A DNA stretch of 42,109 nt. It comes from Gemmatimonadota bacterium (GTDB lineage: Bacteria; Gemmatimonadota; Gemmatimonadetes; Longimicrobiales; Gaopeijiaceae). The notes under the pieces are model-generated. The model was not told the origin of the DNA. It searched no databases and saw only the letters and a program-made list of their open reading frames with translations. The position numbers and the translations under genes are program-made. Shown piece by piece: positions 10,356 through 25,929 of the stretch (the first letter of the stretch is position 1; each line of letters begins with the position of its first letter). Where the stretch lies: positions 1-42,109 of the forward strand of contig SKNW01000010.1 of NCBI GenBank assembly GCA_007120305.1, written 5' to 3'.

Positions 10356-11393
10356 ATGTCCGCATCCGACACTGCATCCGAATCCGCCACGCCCATCGAG
10401 AACGTCGTCATCATCGGCTCCGGCCCCGCCGGGTGGACAGCCGCCGTCTACGCGGCGCGTGCGCGCCTGGATCCCCTGGTGATCGAGGGCGGCCCCTCCC
10501 GGGAAATGATTCCCGGCGGGCAGCTCATGTTCACCACCGACATCGAGAACTTTCCCGGTTTCCCCGAGGGCGTGGACGGTCAGAAGCTCATGGCCGACAT
10601 GAAGCTGCAGGCCGAGCGCTTTGGAACCCGGGTCGTCACCGACGACGTGGTGGAACTGGACACCTCGGTGCGCCCCTTTCGCCTGGTGACCCGCTACAGC
10701 GGCGAGGTGCGGGCCCACACCGTGATCGTGGCCACCGGAGCCCGGGCAAACTGGCTGGGGCTGCCGAACGAGGAGCGGCTGGCCCACAGCGGGGGTGGCG
10801 TGTCGGCGTGTGCGGTCTGTGACGGCGCCCTTCCCGCCTTCCGGGACCAGGTCCTGGCCGTGGTCGGCGGGGGCGACTCCGCCATGGAGGAGGCCACCTA
10901 CCTCACCAAGTTCGCCCGCGAGGTCGTCATCGTGCACCGGCGGGATTCCTTCCGCGCCTCTCCCATCATGGTGGAGCGCGCCCTGGAGAACCCGAAGATC
11001 CGGGTGGCGTGGAACTCCGAAGTCGTGGACGTGCTGGGTGATGATTTCATCACAGGGCTCCGTCTGCGTGACACCGTCACCGGCGAAGAGTCCGAGATCG
11101 AGGTGGGCGGGCTTTTTCTCGCCATCGGGCATACCCCCAACAGCGCGTTTCTTCAGGGCGTGCTGGAACTGAACGAGGCCGGGTATGTGGTCCCGGCCGA
11201 ACCCTGGCGGACCCGCACCTCGGTGGAGGGGATCTTCGCGGCGGGCGATGTCATGGACGACTACTTCCGTCAGGCCGTCACCGCTGCCGGTACCGGGTGC
11301 ATGGCCGCCCTGGAGGCCGAGCGATGGCTGGCCCACGGGGTCGACGTCGAGGCCCACGACATTCCAGCGGAGCCCGTGGCCTCGGAGTCGTAG
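10356..11393 (+). CDS. trxB: Thioredoxin reductase
   Basis: NADPH-dependent reductase of thioredoxin. The FAD motif [16 protein letters not shown], the catalytic pair CAVC at residues 152-155 and the NADPH motif [13 protein letters not shown] are all present, and the C-terminal FAD segment is [10 protein letters not shown]. At 345 aa it is slightly longer than the 320-aa E. coli enzyme because of tails at both ends. It follows the YumC-like reductase by 3 bases and precedes the methionine sulfoxide reductase pair, which are thioredoxin-dependent, so the block is functionally coherent. A weak hairpin (11499-11515) separates it from msrB. Confidence 0.94.
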
Positions 11394-11498
11394 GCCGCCC
11401 CCGGCGGCGGCTGCCCGTGGGACTGGCCACGGGACCGGCCAGGGGAACGCCCGCCCGCCCGGGGGGTGCAACGAGACACACGGCAAAGGTGCGCGGCA

Positions 11499-11520
11499 GA
11501 GGTGCGCCGCACCTCGTTTT
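11499..11520 (+). terminator. Possible weak intrinsic terminator after trxB
   Basis: GAGGTGC-GCC-GCACCTC forms a perfect 7-bp stem with a 3-base loop, followed by GTTTTCC. The T-tract is short (four), so it may only partly stop transcription or separate msrB expression from trxB. It ends about 20 bases before the msrB start. Confidence 0.4.
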
Positions 11521-11539
11521 CCTCCCCACCGAGTGGACC

Positions 11540-12124
11540 ATGTCCGACCCGCACGACCTCGGGACCTCCGTCTCCTCCCGCCGGGCCTTCCTGGGCCAGG
11601 CCGGCGCGAAGCTCCTCTCGGCCCGCCTGGCCCTTCCCTTCCTGGGCTCCGGAGCGGCGCTGGCCCTTTCTGCCTGCCGGAGCACGTCGGGGGGCTCGAA
11701 CGGGTACGAGATGCCCCAGCTTCTCCCCCGCGAGGAGTGGCGGCGCCTCCTCACCGCCGAGCAGTTCCACATCCTCTTCGAGGAGGGCACGGAGCGGGCG
11801 GGATCGAGCCCGCTGGACAAGGTCTACGATCCCGGCACGTACGTGTGCGCCGCCTGCTTCCAGCCTCTGTTCAGCTCCGAGACCAAGTACGACTCCCGAA
11901 CCGGCTGGCCCAGTTTCTGGACCCACCTGCCCGGCGCCGTCGGAACGAAGGAAGACAACACCTTCTTCATGCGCCGCACGGAGTGCCACTGCTCCCGCTG
12001 CGGCGGGCACCAGGGACACGTCTTCTCCGACGGGCCTCCCCCCACCGGGGAGCGTTGGTGCATCAACGGGCTGGCGCTGGAGTTCGTGGCCGAGGGGCAG
12101 CCGCTGCCGGAGCTCCGGGGATGA
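11540..12124 (+). CDS. msrB: Peptide-methionine (R)-S-oxide reductase MsrB, Tat lipoprotein
   Basis: Reduces methionine R-sulfoxide in proteins. The zinc Cys pairs are CAAC (103-106) and CSRC (151-154), and the catalytic Cys is in RWCINGLAL (residue 174); WPSFW and GHQGHVFSDGPPPTGERW are family motifs. The N-terminus carries a twin-arginine signal (SSRRAFLG, RR at 14-15) followed by a hydrophobic stretch and a lipobox ALSAC (Cys46). It is therefore probably exported folded by Tat and lipid-anchored, so repair would take place in the envelope. The ATG at 11540 is the only start that gives this full signal. The stop overlaps the msrA start by ATGA. Confidence 0.93.
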   Translation: MSDPHDLGTSVSSRRAFLGQAGAKLLSARLALPFLGSGAALALSACRSTSGGSNGYEMPQLLPREEWRRLLTAEQFHILFEEGTERAGSSPLDKVYDPGTYVCAACFQPLFSSETKYDSRTGWPSFWTHLPGAVGTKEDNTFFMRRTECHCSRCGGHQGHVFSDGPPPTGERWCINGLALEFVAEGQPLPELRG

Positions 12125-12789
12125 GGCGCCTTGCGATGAGGCGGCTCGAGAGGGTCCTCCTGGCTACGCTTCTTCCCTTCTGGGGGCTCGCCGCCTGTGG
12201 CGCTGACCTGGAGGCTCGACCCGATGCCGCCCCTCCCGAACCGGCTGCCCGGGAACAGGCAGCGGACACGGCCTGGTTCGCCGGAGGATGCTTCTGGTGC
12301 ATGGAGCCGCCCTTCGACGCGGTGGACGGTGTCTTGTCCACCACCTCCGGGTTCATGGGGGGGAGCGTGGAGAACCCGACCTACCAGCAGGTCACGGCCG
12401 GCGGGACGGGGCACCTGGAGGCCGTGCAGGTCATCTTCGACCCGGCCCGGGTCAACTACGGCCAGCTCCTCCAGATCTTCTGGGTCAACATCGATCCCCT
12501 GGACGACGGCGGGCAGTTCTGTGACCGGGGGAGCATCTACCGGTCCGCCATCTTCGCCCGGGGAGAGGAGCAGCGCGCCACGGCGGAGGCGTCGCTCCTG
12601 GCGCTTCGGACCTCGGGGCGCTTCGATGCCCCCATCGTGACCCGGATCCTGGACGCCGCCCCCTTCTACGAGGCCGAGGAGTACCACCAGGGATACTACC
12701 GGAAGAATCCCGTGCGCTACCGGGTCTACCGGACCTCCTGCGGGCGGGACCGGCGGCTCCGGGCGCTCTGGGGCGCCGACGCGGGCTGA
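12121..12789 (+). CDS. msrA: Peptide-methionine (S)-S-oxide reductase MsrA, lipoprotein
   Basis: Reduces methionine S-sulfoxide, the partner reaction to MsrB. The active-site motif GGCFWC lies at 55-60 and is followed by FDAVDGV; EYHQGYYRKNP is the conserved C-terminal motif. The N-terminus (MRRLAMRRLERVLLATLLPFWGLAAC is a signal with lipobox LAAC at Cys26) predicts a lipoprotein, matching MsrB. The true start is the ATG at 12121 that overlaps the msrB stop; the long tracked ORF from 11185 is a shadow of trxB and msrB. A periplasmic thiol donor would be required and is not seen here. Confidence 0.93.
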   Translation: MRRLAMRRLERVLLATLLPFWGLAACGADLEARPDAAPPEPAAREQAADTAWFAGGCFWCMEPPFDAVDGVLSTTSGFMGGSVENPTYQQVTAGGTGHLEAVQVIFDPARVNYGQLLQIFWVNIDPLDDGGQFCDRGSIYRSAIFARGEEQRATAEASLLALRTSGRFDAPIVTRILDAAPFYEAEEYHQGYYRKNPVRYRVYRTSCGRDRRLRALWGADAG

Positions 12790-12831: not shown

Positions 12832-13557
12832 CTACCGCCCGCCCAGGGAGCGGCCCCCGTCCACCACCACCACCTCGCCCGTGATGAAGGGCGACCGATG
12901 CAGGAAGAGGACGGTCCGCACCACATCCTCTGGCGTTCCCAGGGTGCCCAGTGCCGCGGCCCGGCGGGACCGCTCCCGGTAGGCGTCTTCGGCGTCGTCG
13001 GGGGGGAGCACGGAGCCGGGGGCGATGGCGTTCACCCGGACCCGGGGGGCCATGGCCCGGGCCATGACCCGGGTCAGGTGGAGGAGCCCGGCCTTGGACA
13101 CGGCGTGATGGGCATACTCCGTCCAGGGCTGGGTGGCCGAAAGGTCCACCAGGTTCACCACCGTGCCTTCTGCCTGGTCCAGGAGGTCGGCTGTGGCCTT
13201 GAGCATGAGGAAGGGGCCCTTGAGGTTCACGGCCATGACCCGGTCCCACTCCTCCTCCTCCACCTCCAGCAGGCGCCGGGGCTGAAAGAGGGAGGCGTTG
13301 TTCACCAGCAGGTCCAGACGCCCGAAGCGCTCCCGGAGCACCGCGGCCACGCGCTCCACGCCGTCCGAGGTCGACACGTCACCCTGCACGGCCACGGCCC
13401 GCTGACCCAGCGCCTCGATCCGGTCCACCACGTCCTGCGCATCTCCCGGCGAGGCATGGTGGTTGACCAGGACGTCGAACCCGGCCTCCGCCAGGCCGAG
13501 GGAGATGGCGCGCCCCACGCGGCGGGCGCCTCCGGTGACGAGGGCAGTTCGGGCCAT
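12832..13557 (-). CDS. Pteridine reductase-like SDR with His in place of the catalytic Tyr
   Basis: Short-chain dehydrogenase most like pteridine reductase PTR1/FolM, enzymes that reduce dihydropterins with NADPH. The cofactor motif is TGGARRVGRAI (8-18), with NHHAS at 32-36 and NNASLF at 86-91. The PTR1-type Asp is kept (D138 in NLVDLS) and Lys155 too, and the 13-residue distance from Asp to the catalytic position equals that in PTR1. However, the catalytic position itself is His151 (YAHHAVSK; codons CAT CAC), while the Tyr three residues earlier, Tyr148, remains. The C-terminal VVVVDGGRSLGGR is normal. Activity may be changed or lost. The gene is divergent from the SDR at 13705. Confidence 0.8.
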   Translation of the reverse strand: MARTALVTGGARRVGRAISLGLAEAGFDVLVNHHASPGDAQDVVDRIEALGQRAVAVQGDVSTSDGVERVAAVLRERFGRLDLLVNNASLFQPRRLLEVEEEEWDRVMAVNLKGPFLMLKATADLLDQAEGTVVNLVDLSATQPWTEYAHHAVSKAGLLHLTRVMARAMAPRVRVNAIAPGSVLPPDDAEDAYRERSRRAAALGTLGTPEDVVRTVLFLHRSPFITGEVVVVDGGRSLGGR

Positions 13558-13692
13558 GGTGGATGATGGTGAGGGCTGGAGCGACAGAGGCTCGGAATGA
13601 AACGAAGGAGCTACTCCAAGGTACCCCTCTCATGCCGAACGGACGAGAGCGAACGCGTTCTCGGGCGGCAGGCGGCATCTACATCGACATCG

Positions 13693-13700
13693 AGGGAGGA
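13693..13700 (+). promoter_or_regulatory. Ribosome binding site deciding the SDR start at 13705
   Basis: AGGGAGGA lies 4 bases before GTG 13705. The tracked ATG at 13597 has no comparable site, and the 36 residues it would add are Ser/Arg-rich. Confidence 0.65.
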
Positions 13701-13704
13701 ACCA

Positions 13705-14445
13705 GTGGCTGAAGCGTCTGGGGGACACGACCTGGCCGGGAAGGTGGCCGTCATCACGGGGAGCACGAAGGGGATCGGCCGGGCCCTGGCCGAGGACCTG
13801 GTCCGGGCCGGAGCCCGGGTGGTGATCTCGAGCCGAACCGCGGCCGATGTGGAGCAGGTGGCCGCGGAAGTCAGCGGCATCGGGCCGGGGGAGGCCGTGG
13901 GCATCCCCTGCGACGTGCGCGAACCGGCGGCCTGCCATGACCTGGTGAGCGGTGCGGTGGCCCGGTTCGGTCGGCTGGACATTGTCGTGAACAACGCCGG
14001 GCTCGGGCGCTTTGCCCGCATCCAGGAGATGGACCCGGCGGACTGGGAGGTCCAGATCCGCACGAACCTGGACGGGGTCTTCCACGTTTCCCAGGCCGCC
14101 ATCCCCCACCTGGTGTCGGCGGGCGGTGGGTGGATCTTCAACGTGGCCTCGCTGGCGGGGCGCAACGCCTTCTCGGGCGGCACCGCCTACAACGCCACCA
14201 AGTTCGGCCTGGTGGGGATGACGGAGGCCATGATGCTGGACCTGCGCGACGAGAACATCCGCGTGAGCTGCATCATGCCCGGAAGCGTGAACACCCACTT
14301 CTTCGGCGGCGAGCCAGGACCGGAAGGGGCATGGAAGCTCCAGCCCGAAGACATCTCGCGGGTGATGATGGACCTCCTCGCGTTCCCGGGTCGCGCCCTC
14401 CCCTCCAAGGTGGAAATCCGCCCCAGCCGGCCTCCGAAGAAGTAG
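13705..14445 (+). CDS. SDR family oxidoreductase (FabG-like), 246 aa
   Basis: NAD(P)-dependent short-chain dehydrogenase of the classical type. The Rossmann motif is TGSTKGIGRAL, followed by NNAGLG, the catalytic Ser region FNVASLAG and the intact YNATK (YxxxK) pair. The protein resembles FabG-like 3-oxoacyl or general alcohol dehydrogenases; substrate unknown. The GTG at 13705 is used because it follows a strong AGGGAGGA. It is divergent from the pteridine-reductase-like gene, with about 147 bases between start codons. A DUF4242 gene follows after 123 bases. Confidence 0.85.
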   Translation: MAEASGGHDLAGKVAVITGSTKGIGRALAEDLVRAGARVVISSRTAADVEQVAAEVSGIGPGEAVGIPCDVREPAACHDLVSGAVARFGRLDIVVNNAGLGRFARIQEMDPADWEVQIRTNLDGVFHVSQAAIPHLVSAGGGWIFNVASLAGRNAFSGGTAYNATKFGLVGMTEAMMLDLRDENIRVSCIMPGSVNTHFFGGEPGPEGAWKLQPEDISRVMMDLLAFPGRALPSKVEIRPSRPPKK

Positions 14446-22819: not shown

Positions 22820-23260
22820 ATGCCCCAGCCCCTCGTTCGCGTTACCCGCCGGCTCCACTTCAACGCCGCGCATCGCCTCTACCGGCCCGACTGGACCGAC
22901 GAACGCAACGCCGAGGTCTTCGGTCCCTGCGCCAATCCCCACTGGCACGGCCACAACTACGAGATCGAGGTCACGGTGGAAGGGACGATCAACCCCGAAA
23001 CGGGGTACGTGATGGACCTGGGTGACCTGAAGGACCGGGTGAACGAGTCCGTCATCGACCAGGTGGATCACCGGAACCTCAACGTGGAGGTCCCCTGGCT
23101 GGAGGGTCTCAATCCCACCACCGAGAACTTCGTGGTGGCCATCTGGACGCGGCTTGAGCCACTTCTGCCTTCCGGGGTGCGCCTGGCCCGCCTGGTGCTC
23201 TGGGAAACCCCCCGCAACTACGTGGAATACGAGGGCGAACTCGCCCCTTCCTCCTCCTGA
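22820..23260 (+). CDS. 6-pyruvoyltetrahydropterin synthase (animal-type PTPS)
   Basis: PTPS converts dihydroneopterin triphosphate to 6-pyruvoyltetrahydropterin, on the way to tetrahydrobiopterin; the related QueD makes the queuosine precursor. Zinc ligands are His18, His43 and His45 (FNAAHRL, HWHGHNY), the catalytic Cys is Cys37 in FGPC, and Asp83-His84 follow in VDHRNLN. The FGxCxNPxxHGHNY spacing, INPETGYVMDLGDLK and the ending NYVEYEGE read like animal PTPS and unlike the short QueD pattern (compare the 24880 gene). This favours a biopterin-type role. The ATG directly follows a 123-base gap after the 6S terminator, and folE starts on the base after its stop codon. Confidence 0.88.
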   Translation: MPQPLVRVTRRLHFNAAHRLYRPDWTDERNAEVFGPCANPHWHGHNYEIEVTVEGTINPETGYVMDLGDLKDRVNESVIDQVDHRNLNVEVPWLEGLNPTTENFVVAIWTRLEPLLPSGVRLARLVLWETPRNYVEYEGELAPSSS

Positions 23261-23989
23261 ATGGACTCCATGGATTCAAGGACGCCCTCCATGCCTTCGA
23301 ACCTGCTCGATACCGAGAACGGGCTCACGCCCGCCCCCACCGCCTCGATCCCCACGGCCGACGGATCCCTTCCGCCCCTCGACGGCGACGTCTCTCCGGA
23401 ACAGGCCGAGGTCATTTCCCAGGTCCCCTTCACGGCCCTGGTGCGCGAGACGCTGCGGCGGATCGGAGAGGAGCCGGACCGGGAGGGGCTCCTCAAGACC
23501 CCGGAGCGGGTGGTGAAGGCCTGGGAGTTCCTGGCCCGGGGCTACCGGGTCTCGGCCGAGGAGACCATCGGCGACGCCCTCTTCGCCGAGCGGCATCACA
23601 ACATGATCATCGTGAAGGACATCGAGATGTACTCGCTCTGCGAGCATCACATGATTCCCTTCTTCGGGAAGGTGCATGTCGCCTACATCCCCGATGGCCA
23701 CATCCTCGGACTCTCCAAGGTGGCGCGGCTGGTGGAGGTCTTCAGTCGCCGGCTCCAGGTGCAGGAGCGGCTCACCGAGGAGATCGCCCAGAGCTTCTGG
23801 GAGGTGGTGCAGCCGCAGGGCGTGGGCGTGGTCATCGAAGCCCATCATCTGTGCATGATGATGCGCGGCGTTCAGAAGCAGAACTCCTACACGATCACCT
23901 CGGCCATGCGGGGGGCGTTCCTCGAGGAACCCAGCACCCGCGACGAGTTCCTCCGCCTGTGCATGCACAGCCGGCCCCCGGTGGGGTGA
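23261..23989 (+). CDS. folE: GTP cyclohydrolase I
   Basis: Opens GTP to form dihydroneopterin triphosphate, the first step of folate and tetrahydropterin synthesis. The zinc site is Cys127 and His130 in [10 protein letters not shown] and Cys198 in [29 protein letters not shown] and the ending EFLRL are typical. At 242 aa it has a Thr/Ser/Pro-rich N-terminal extension of about 45 residues; in-frame ATGs at 23270 and 23291 are alternatives. Placed immediately after PTPS and 4 bases before an SDR, it supplies the PTPS substrate. Confidence 0.96.
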
Positions 23990-23993
23990 GGTC

Positions 23994-24770
23994 ATGATGG
24001 TGGATGCGACGAATTCGGCCGAGGCGACGTCATCGGTCTCCGGCGCCGGGAGCGCCGGCCCGAAGCCCCTGGCGGGGCAGTCCGCCCTTGTCACCGGCGC
24101 CTCCCGGGGGATCGGGGCGGCGGTGGCCCGGGATCTGGCCCGCCTGGGAGCCCGCGTCGGCGTGGCCGCCCGAAGCGAGGCCCCGCTCCGGGAACTGACC
24201 GCAGAACTCGGGGGGTGGGCCCTCCCCGGCGACCTCACCGACCCCGACGGCGTCGCGCAGATGCTTCGGCGCTTCCGGGAGGCCGCGGGGGGCGAGCCCG
24301 ACATCCTGGTCACCTCGGCGGGGGTCTTCACCATCGCCTCGGTGGAGGCCACGTCGGCGGAGGAGCTGGACCTGAACTGGGCGCTGAACGTCCGGGCCTC
24401 CGTCCTCTGCGTGCAGGGGGTTCTGGCCGGGATGAAGGCCCGGGGATCCGGTACGCTCGTGCAGGTGGGCTCGGTGGCGGGTCGGAAGGCCTTTCCGGGG
24501 AACGGGGCCTACTCGGCCTCCAAGTTCGGGATCCGGGGGTTCCACGAAGTGCTCCTGGAGGAGATCCGGGGCACGGGCGTGCGGGCCACCCTGCTGGAAC
24601 CGGCGGCCACCGACACCCCCATCTGGGATCCCATCGACCCGGACAACGACCCGCATCTCCCCCCCCGAGCGGCCATGCTCCGTCCCGCCGAGGTGGCGGA
24701 AGCAGTATCTTTCGTGGTCACCCGGCCGGCGGGGGTACAGATCCCCTTCCTGCCCATCGAGCGGAGCTGA
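23994..24770 (+). CDS. SDR oxidoreductase, possible sepiapterin-reductase-like role
   Basis: Classical short-chain dehydrogenase: cofactor motif TGASRGIGAAVARDL near residues 34-48, catalytic Ser in VGSVAGRKAF and YSASK (YxxxK). The usual NNAG motif is TSAG here. By sequence I can only call a general SDR with FabG-like features. Its position, 4 bases after GTP cyclohydrolase I and between two PTPS-family genes, makes a 6-pyruvoyltetrahydropterin (sepiapterin) reductase role attractive, but that is inference from context. Start is ATG 23994 or 23997 (ATGATG). A 109-base gap with nothing evident follows. Confidence 0.82.
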   Translation: MMVDATNSAEATSSVSGAGSAGPKPLAGQSALVTGASRGIGAAVARDLARLGARVGVAARSEAPLRELTAELGGWALPGDLTDPDGVAQMLRRFREAAGGEPDILVTSAGVFTIASVEATSAEELDLNWALNVRASVLCVQGVLAGMKARGSGTLVQVGSVAGRKAFPGNGAYSASKFGIRGFHEVLLEEIRGTGVRATLLEPAATDTPIWDPIDPDNDPHLPPRAAMLRPAEVAEAVSFVVTRPAGVQIPFLPIERS

Positions 24771-24879
24771 AGGGGCGAGTCCGCCCCCAGGCCCCCTCCC
24801 TGCAACCGAACCCCCCGGAGCCGGCCCGTCGGCCCCCGCCGCTCGCCGGCCTCCGGATGCGCGTCTCCCGGAGTTCCGC

Positions 24880-25296
24880 ATGTACACCGTCAGCGCCCAG
24901 GCCCACTACGACGCCGCCCACTTCCTCCGCCATCACAAGGGGAAGTGCGCCCGTCTTCATGGACATCGGTACGTGGTGGAAGCCGCCGTTCAGGCGGCGG
25001 AGCTGGACGAGGCCGGGCTCGCCTTCGACTTCGGGGACCTGAAGGCCATTCTCCGCGAGCTGGCCGAGGAACTGGACCACGAGAACCTGAACGAACTTCC
25101 CATGTTCCAGGGCGTGGAGACCAGTGCCGAGAACCAGGCCCGCTGGTTCCACGACGAGCTGAAGCGCCGCCTCCCCGCCGACCTGGCCGGGGGGCTCCTC
25201 TACGCCCGCATCTGGGAGTCTCCCACCCAGTGGGCCCAGTACGGTCCCGCGTCGTCCGGAGGGGGGATGCCCGCGTACCGCGCCCCCTCCCTCTGA
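24880..25296 (+). CDS. queD: 6-carboxytetrahydropterin synthase-like protein (QueD type)
   Basis: Second PTPS-family member in the cluster, of the shorter bacterial pattern. Zinc ligands His14, His27 and His29 (YDAAHFL, RLHGHRY), catalytic Cys23 in GKCARLHGH, and LDHENLNEL. QueD converts dihydroneopterin triphosphate to 6-carboxytetrahydropterin, the precursor of 7-deazaguanine in queuosine tRNA. QueC and QueE are not in the window, so this role is by family. The C-terminal tail (SSGGGMPAYRAPSL) extends beyond the fold. Three bases separate it from the next gene. Confidence 0.85.
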   Translation: MYTVSAQAHYDAAHFLRHHKGKCARLHGHRYVVEAAVQAAELDEAGLAFDFGDLKAILRELAEELDHENLNELPMFQGVETSAENQARWFHDELKRRLPADLAGGLLYARIWESPTQWAQYGPASSGGGMPAYRAPSL

Positions 25297-25299
25297 GCC

Positions 25300-25929
25300 A
25301 TGCACCTCCTGACCACCGACCGGCTGGCCTGCCCCCGCTGCGGTCCGGCCTTCGGGCTCATCCTCCTGGCCGACCGGGTGGTGGATCGGAGGGTACTGGA
25401 AGGGAGCTTCGGCTGCGCCAACTGTCGTGAGCGCTTTCCGGTCCGGGGCGGCTTCGGGGACTTCCGCCCTCCTCCCGCCGCGCCTCTGGCCGAAGACCCC
25501 CGGGCCGCCGATCCCGGCCCCGACGACCCCGAAGGAGCGCTTCGCCTTGCGGCCATGCTGGGGGTGACCGAGGGGCCGGCCACCCTCCTCCTGCTCGGAG
25601 GACCGGCGCGCCAGGCCGAGCGCCTGGTGGCCATGGTGCCGGGGGTGGAGGTGGTGGCGGTTCACCCGGGCCTCCGGGAACGGCCGGAGGGGGAGGGGGT
25701 TTCCCGTCTCCATGTCAGTACCGTCCTTCCCTTCTTCTCCGCTACCTTCCGGGGCGTGGCCATGGATGCCGCATGGGCCGCGACCCACCTGGACGAGGCG
25801 CTCCGGGTGGCCGCTCCCGGCGTCCGTGTGGTCGTGGAGCTGTCCGATGCGGCGCTGGCCCGCCGGGTCACGAAGGCGCTCCAGGATGTCCTCCTCCAGA
25901 CCGAGCGGCTGATCGTTGGCACACGCTGA
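25300..25929 (+). CDS. Trm112-like zinc-ribbon protein with an unrecognised C-terminal domain
   Basis: The N-terminus has a Trm112-like zinc ribbon: CPRC at 11-14 and CANC at 39-42, with GCANCRERFPV, the pattern found in small proteins that activate methyltransferases. The rest (about 75-209) has alternating strands and helices (TLLLLGGPARQ, GVEVVAVHPGL, SRLHVSTVLPF, VRVVVELSD) like a Rossmann-type methyltransferase, but I do not see the glycine-rich SAM loop except LLLGGPA. It may be a reduced methyltransferase or a partner protein. Function unknown. It ends the pterin cluster. Confidence 0.7.
   Translation: MHLLTTDRLACPRCGPAFGLILLADRVVDRRVLEGSFGCANCRERFPVRGGFGDFRPPPAAPLAEDPRAADPGPDDPEGALRLAAMLGVTEGPATLLLLGGPARQAERLVAMVPGVEVVAVHPGLRERPEGEGVSRLHVSTVLPFFSATFRGVAMDAAWAATHLDEALRVAAPGVRVVVELSDAALARRVTKALQDVLLQTERLIVGTR

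Follow-up and report, generated by a model that had tools for sequence, protein, structure and literature searches.

Few catalytic residues in one of the largest enzyme superfamilies, the short-chain dehydrogenases/reductases (SDRs), are as strongly conserved as the Tyr of the YxxxK motif. Within this superfamily FolM is known to reduce both dihydropterin and dihydrofolate, and in E. coli it coexists with FolA. TmpR, a bifunctional dihydropteridine/dihydrofolate reductase, is likewise an SDR that is named as having dihydrofolate reductase (DHFR) activity. A comparative study identified the motif TGX3RXG as a mark that sets PTR1 and FolM apart from other SDRs, which carry TGX3GXG; it considered dihydropterin reduction the likely main role of FolM and described the DHFR of ThyX organisms as an open gap in folate comparative genomics (PMC1971073). 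For PTR1 the division of labour within the Asp-Tyr-Lys triad has been worked out: Lys places the nicotinamide, Asp takes up a solvent proton and Tyr passes it on to the substrate in the first reduction, while in the second reduction, from dihydro to tetrahydro, the proton comes from water as in DHFR (PMC8996148, PMC1618733). Mutation of the triad strongly lowers PTR1 activity, according to Leblanc (1998) as cited in PMC8996148.

The gene described here (P0002; 12832..13557, minus strand) lies in a 42,109-nucleotide stretch of DNA from a Gemmatimonadota bacterium, the whole of which is referred to as the window. It starts with ATG and encodes a PTR1/FolM-type short-chain reductase of 241 amino acids with a classical SDR Rossmann fold, a TGxxxGxG-type cofactor motif and an NNA motif (Pfam PF13561/PF00106; structural model). 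Read from the sequence, residues 8-15 (13513..13536, minus strand) form TGGARRVG and thus the TGX3RXG signature of the PTR1/FolM group, in which we take R13 as the equivalent of PTR1 Arg17. The position of the catalytic Ser of SDRs, which is Ser in FabG-type enzymes, is occupied by D138 (13144..13146, minus strand), the counterpart of PTR1 Asp181, and Asp is present here in the window protein and in all 29 sequences of alignment A1. The counterpart of PTR1 Lys198 is K155 (13093..13095, minus strand). Between them, in place of the catalytic Tyr (Tyr194 in PTR1), stands H151 (codon CAC; 13105..13107, minus strand), preceded by H150 (codon CAT; 13108..13110 in plus-strand numbering, minus strand), both within YAHHAVSK. 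D138 is 13 residues N-terminal and K155 four residues C-terminal of H151, a spacing identical to that of Asp181-Tyr194-Lys198 in L. major PTR1 (residue numbers from PMC8996148). The first-pass annotation had pointed out this His, its codons and the PTR1-like spacing of its partners, all of which we confirmed in the sequence. In place of the YxxxK of classical SDRs the protein therefore has HxxxK at 151-155, and in place of the Asp-Tyr-Lys of the PTR1/FolM group it has Asp-His-Lys.

The resemblance to trypanosomatid PTR1 comprises the SDR fold, TGX3RXG, Asp at the Ser position, the spacing of the Lys and, assigned by motif, S89 and F91 at the Ser and Phe positions of the pterin pocket. The window protein differs from PTR1 in the His for Tyr194, in its shorter length and in an only distant sequence similarity. 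With FolM (E. coli FolM; Brucella FolM, 5tgd) it shares the SDR fold, TGX3RXG, the Asp and relatives clustered with folB and folK, but E. coli FolM retains the Tyr and sits in a separate Tyr clade. No published case of an SDR in which His replaces the catalytic Tyr was found in the open-access literature.

His is present in 30 of 30 nearest orthologues (53 to 85% identity), drawn from the genus, family and order of the window, and H151, D138 and K155 are all invariant in alignment A1. A wider set was built by sampling the class and the phylum, retaining rows with Asp at position 138 and dropping duplicates; it holds 96 distinct His sequences and 39 Tyr rows (E. coli FolM was entered twice). 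Nearly all of the 96 come from one bacterial class. R13, H151 and K155 are invariant among them, R13 is also found in 37 of 38 Tyr relatives, and TGX3RXG occurs in 95/96 His and 37/39 Tyr rows. Asp at position 138 is universal in the tree set, for which it was the selection criterion (96/96 His, 38/38 Tyr relatives), and is replaced by Ser in six of six FabG-type sequences. Purifying selection acts on the gene (NG86: dN 0.094 and dS 0.57 against a same-genus copy; dN/dS about 0.17). Because the His is conserved across homologues and dN/dS is low, the replacement is taken to be old and maintained. A sequencing or assembly error, in which case other members would be expected to keep Tyr, is ruled out for all practical purposes: the His recurs in 96 distinct sequences, which stem from many independent genomes, and no point in favour of an error was found. 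Less weight attaches to Y148 (13114..13116, minus strand; PTR1 Tyr191 by spacing), which had been listed as a retained Tyr, since this residue varies among the 96 His sequences (Y 65, F 15, H 10, L 5, R 1).

A quick maximum-likelihood tree was calculated with the His column excluded and FabG as root; PTR1 is absent from it. The classical Tyr group of FolM-, PRK09134- and PRK09135-like proteins, which includes Pseudomonadota and the phylum's other class, forms a clade with support 95, and the His group branches beside rather than inside it. On this point the proposed PTR1 affiliation is not supported in the form in which it was put forward. The tree requires at least four His/Tyr changes. Two Tyr rows (L165, L166) branch from within a set of His rows of their own family; their motif reads GYAHYCVSK where that of the His rows reads GYAHHCVSK, with codons TAC and CAC/CAT, respectively. 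Among these reductases Tyr and His interchange through a single codon change. A further Tyr set (L177, L183, L194, L198) lies in family f7. As the FabG root is weakly placed, it leaves open which way the first change went. One of the 96 His sequences, from a record labelled Chloroflexi (L092:3035-3754), groups with those of genomes G037 and G334, pointing to a possible transfer or a mis-binned contig. This sequence and the useful Tyr outgroups came from a scan of contigs of named organisms, among the matches listed there, which were mostly FabG and FolM-type relatives and did not include the nearest relatives.

Profile scores place the protein near the pteridine reductases and below their curated thresholds. 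The best NCBIfam models are PRK09134 and PRK09135 (pteridine reductase) with 225 bits each, against cut-offs of 281 and 288 bits, respectively; with 131.5 of the required 325 bits it is not a member of TmpR (NF012208). The suggestion of a PTR1-like pterin reductase holds for TGX3RXG, for the Asp at the Ser position, for the conserved His and for the relatives, two His members among them, that occur with folB-folK, and it falls short at the family cut-offs. The AlphaFold model has high confidence (pLDDT 96). Fold comparison was uninformative as to substrate because the roughly 2000 Foldseek matches span SDRs of all kinds, with FabG at the top and T. brucei PTR1 (TM 0.92) among them.

In the window's family the locus consists of thioredoxin-reductase-like genes, the reductase gene, a second SDR gene, and then fumarase and endonuclease IV genes, beyond which lie genes for PTPS, FolE, a Tyr-type SDR and a second PTPS. 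The second SDR is PRK07326-like with ordinary Ser/Tyr/Lys (13597..14445, plus strand); its gene is divergent to that of the reductase and is a conserved neighbour in the family. The pterin cluster (22820..25929, plus strand) comprises a PTPS gene (22820-23260; best score 6PTHBS, below cut-off), folE (23261-23989), the gene for the SDR with ordinary Tyr (23994-24770), a PTPS/QueD gene (24880-25296; QueD cut-off passed) and a small ORF at its end (25300-25929), all on the plus strand; folE and the SDR gene are thus flanked by two PTPS-family genes (22820-25296). This cluster, 10 kb from the reductase gene, had been offered as support for a pterin substrate. Its value as main functional evidence is weakened, since the neighbourhood is confined to the window's family and the cluster carries a Tyr-type SDR of its own. 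Neighbours kept across the class are thioredoxin reductases, fumarase and 2-oxoacid dehydrogenase subunits, with no folate genes among them. On the window's plus strand, a long ORF (11185-12789) has MsrA at residues 362-513 as its sole domain; in 20 relatives' loci there is no counterpart between thioredoxin reductase and SDR, and it probably represents an insertion whose true start lies much further downstream.

Clustering with genes of the pterin branch of folate synthesis is found elsewhere, in two His genomes and many Tyr relatives, and is absent from the window locus and from most loci across the class. In G037, a His genome of the same order, the SDR gene, folB and folK lie on one strand (L236: 9005-9739, 9818-10189, 10263-10916; folB and folK were named from the sequence, folK being confirmed by PF01288), and the same trio occurs in G334, a His genome of another family (L206, L245). 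The trio or near clustering also occurs with Tyr relatives in G019, G029, G350, G059, G061, in further genomes of the phylum and in Gammaproteobacteria.

A stronger lead than the pterin cluster is the rarity of FolA, which makes the His enzyme a DHFR candidate. Among 59 relatives PF00186 (FolA) matched in only five at any score, and the sole full-length match is in G029, which has neither a His orthologue nor ThyX. Across the phylum 35 of 395 genomes contain a strong FolA match (over 100 bits, full length). In family f4, 38 genomes have the reductase only, three have both enzymes, 23 FolA only and about 17 neither. For this opposite distribution Fisher's test gives p 1e-6 by genome and 0.007 by genus, with the qualification that these are mostly E-value presence calls with catalytic residues read for a subset, and that the genomes are not phylogenetically independent. 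The reductase is missing from 23 of the 26 FolA genomes of f4; ThyX was found in none of these 26 and in all ten tested reductase genomes without FolA. Outside f4, five genomes with both FolA and ThyX (G247, G275, G334, G344, G381) retain the His enzyme.

Most genomes that lack both FolA and the reductase retain ThyX (23 of 25, a count that takes in non-f4 genomes and the Tyr-type G019 and G350), so another DHFR solution must exist in the about 17 such genomes of f4; g86 and g94 are examples of genera there with ThyX and neither enzyme. Stand-alone RibD_C was rejected as this alternative: its copy number scatters alike with and without the reductase, and the FolA-less G022, G025, G116, G133 and G181 have a single match. 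Profile matches to HPPK were found in 39 and to DHPS (over cut-off) in 40 of the 59 relatives, and none to either in the window's own genus, which for this reason may depend on folate salvage or on unconjugated pterins, with an unconjugated dihydropterin as the substrate. Several genomes gave split ThyX matches, 0.5-1.7 kb apart in one long frame (528-1187 aa) and near profile positions 70-90 (G001:C42:1742-3490, G004:C54, G020:C51, G025:C1:2369858-2371027, G037:C24, G050:C177, G052:C102); these are probably inteins in ThyX that recur in several genera.

Our preferred reading, with a probability of roughly 0.58, is that the protein is an active NADPH-dependent dihydrofolate and/or dihydropterin reductase of the PTR1/FolM type that works with the triad Asp138-His151-Lys155. 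Its substrate and role we infer from genomic context and distribution. Supporting lines are the PTR1-type residues, purifying selection, the interchange of His and Tyr, the folB-folK clusters and a distribution that is opposite to that of FolA and matches that of ThyX. In the proposed mechanism K155 and H151 would hold the nicotinamide ribose and hydride would be delivered to C6 of the 7,8-dihydro substrate, the proton coming from the Asp138-His151 pair or, as in the published second step of PTR1, from water. An enzyme that serves this second step alone could tolerate loss of the phenol, and H151, besides possibly serving as an acid, could still link D138 to the nicotinamide ribose. Given that Tyr194 is the proton donor for the first PTR1 step only, the His enzyme is expected to be good on dihydro substrates and poor on oxidised folate or biopterin. 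Its physiological role could be to supply the modest DHFR activity needed by ThyX-dependent bacteria without FolA. We propose more tentatively, at somewhat less than even odds, that the class-wide Asp-His-Lys (HxxxK) SDR lineage is the unrecognised DHFR of ThyX-dependent, FolA-less bacteria. The about 17 f4 genomes with neither enzyme, the window's genus without an HPPK or DHPS match and the strong drop in PTR1 activity on mutation of the triad speak against the preferred reading. A further counterpoint would be the pterin-stacking aromatic of PTR1, Phe113: its position, F91 in the window protein, is Phe in 59 of the 96 His sequences and Met in 35, about a third.

A role confined to dihydropterin reduction, in which a FolM-like enzyme would convert dihydromonapterin or dihydrobiopterin for tetrahydropterin cofactors and have no real part in folate metabolism, is in keeping with the main role proposed for FolM (PMC1971073), with the FolE and PTPS genes near the reductase gene in the window's family, with the missing HPPK and DHPS matches in the window's genus and with a biopterin-dependent hydroxylase in the window's genome (G000:C69). 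We nevertheless regard this as rather unlikely, because the hydroxylase occurs in only 15 of 59 relatives, in which the reductase is near universal, the FolE/PTPS neighbourhood is lost beyond the window's family, and the reductase follows ThyX and opposes FolA.

Activity on another substrate altogether, such as a carbonyl or acyl-ACP, with the His as general acid and the PTR1 resemblance a matter of ancestry only, would agree with the FabG-type enzymes that are the closest PDB matches by sequence and fold, with the unmet pteridine reductase cut-offs and with the class-wide neighbours outside folate metabolism. It is improbable in view of TGX3RXG and Asp138, both foreign to FabG (Asp in none of six FabG rows), the folB-folK clusters and the distribution opposite to FolA. 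Even less credible is a catalytically dead NADPH-binding pseudoenzyme: the catalytic Tyr is gone, and in PTR1 changes to the triad are costly (as cited in PMC8996148), but none of R13, D138, H151 and K155 varies among the 96 sequences, dN/dS is about 0.17, near relatives alternate between GYAHYCVSK and GYAHHCVSK, and retention is almost universal.

The natural and stable replacement of Tyr by His, which has changed repeatedly, offers ready-made pairs with which to probe the role of this residue. For one phylum, the reductase provides a concrete candidate for the missing DHFR of FolA-less ThyX bacteria.
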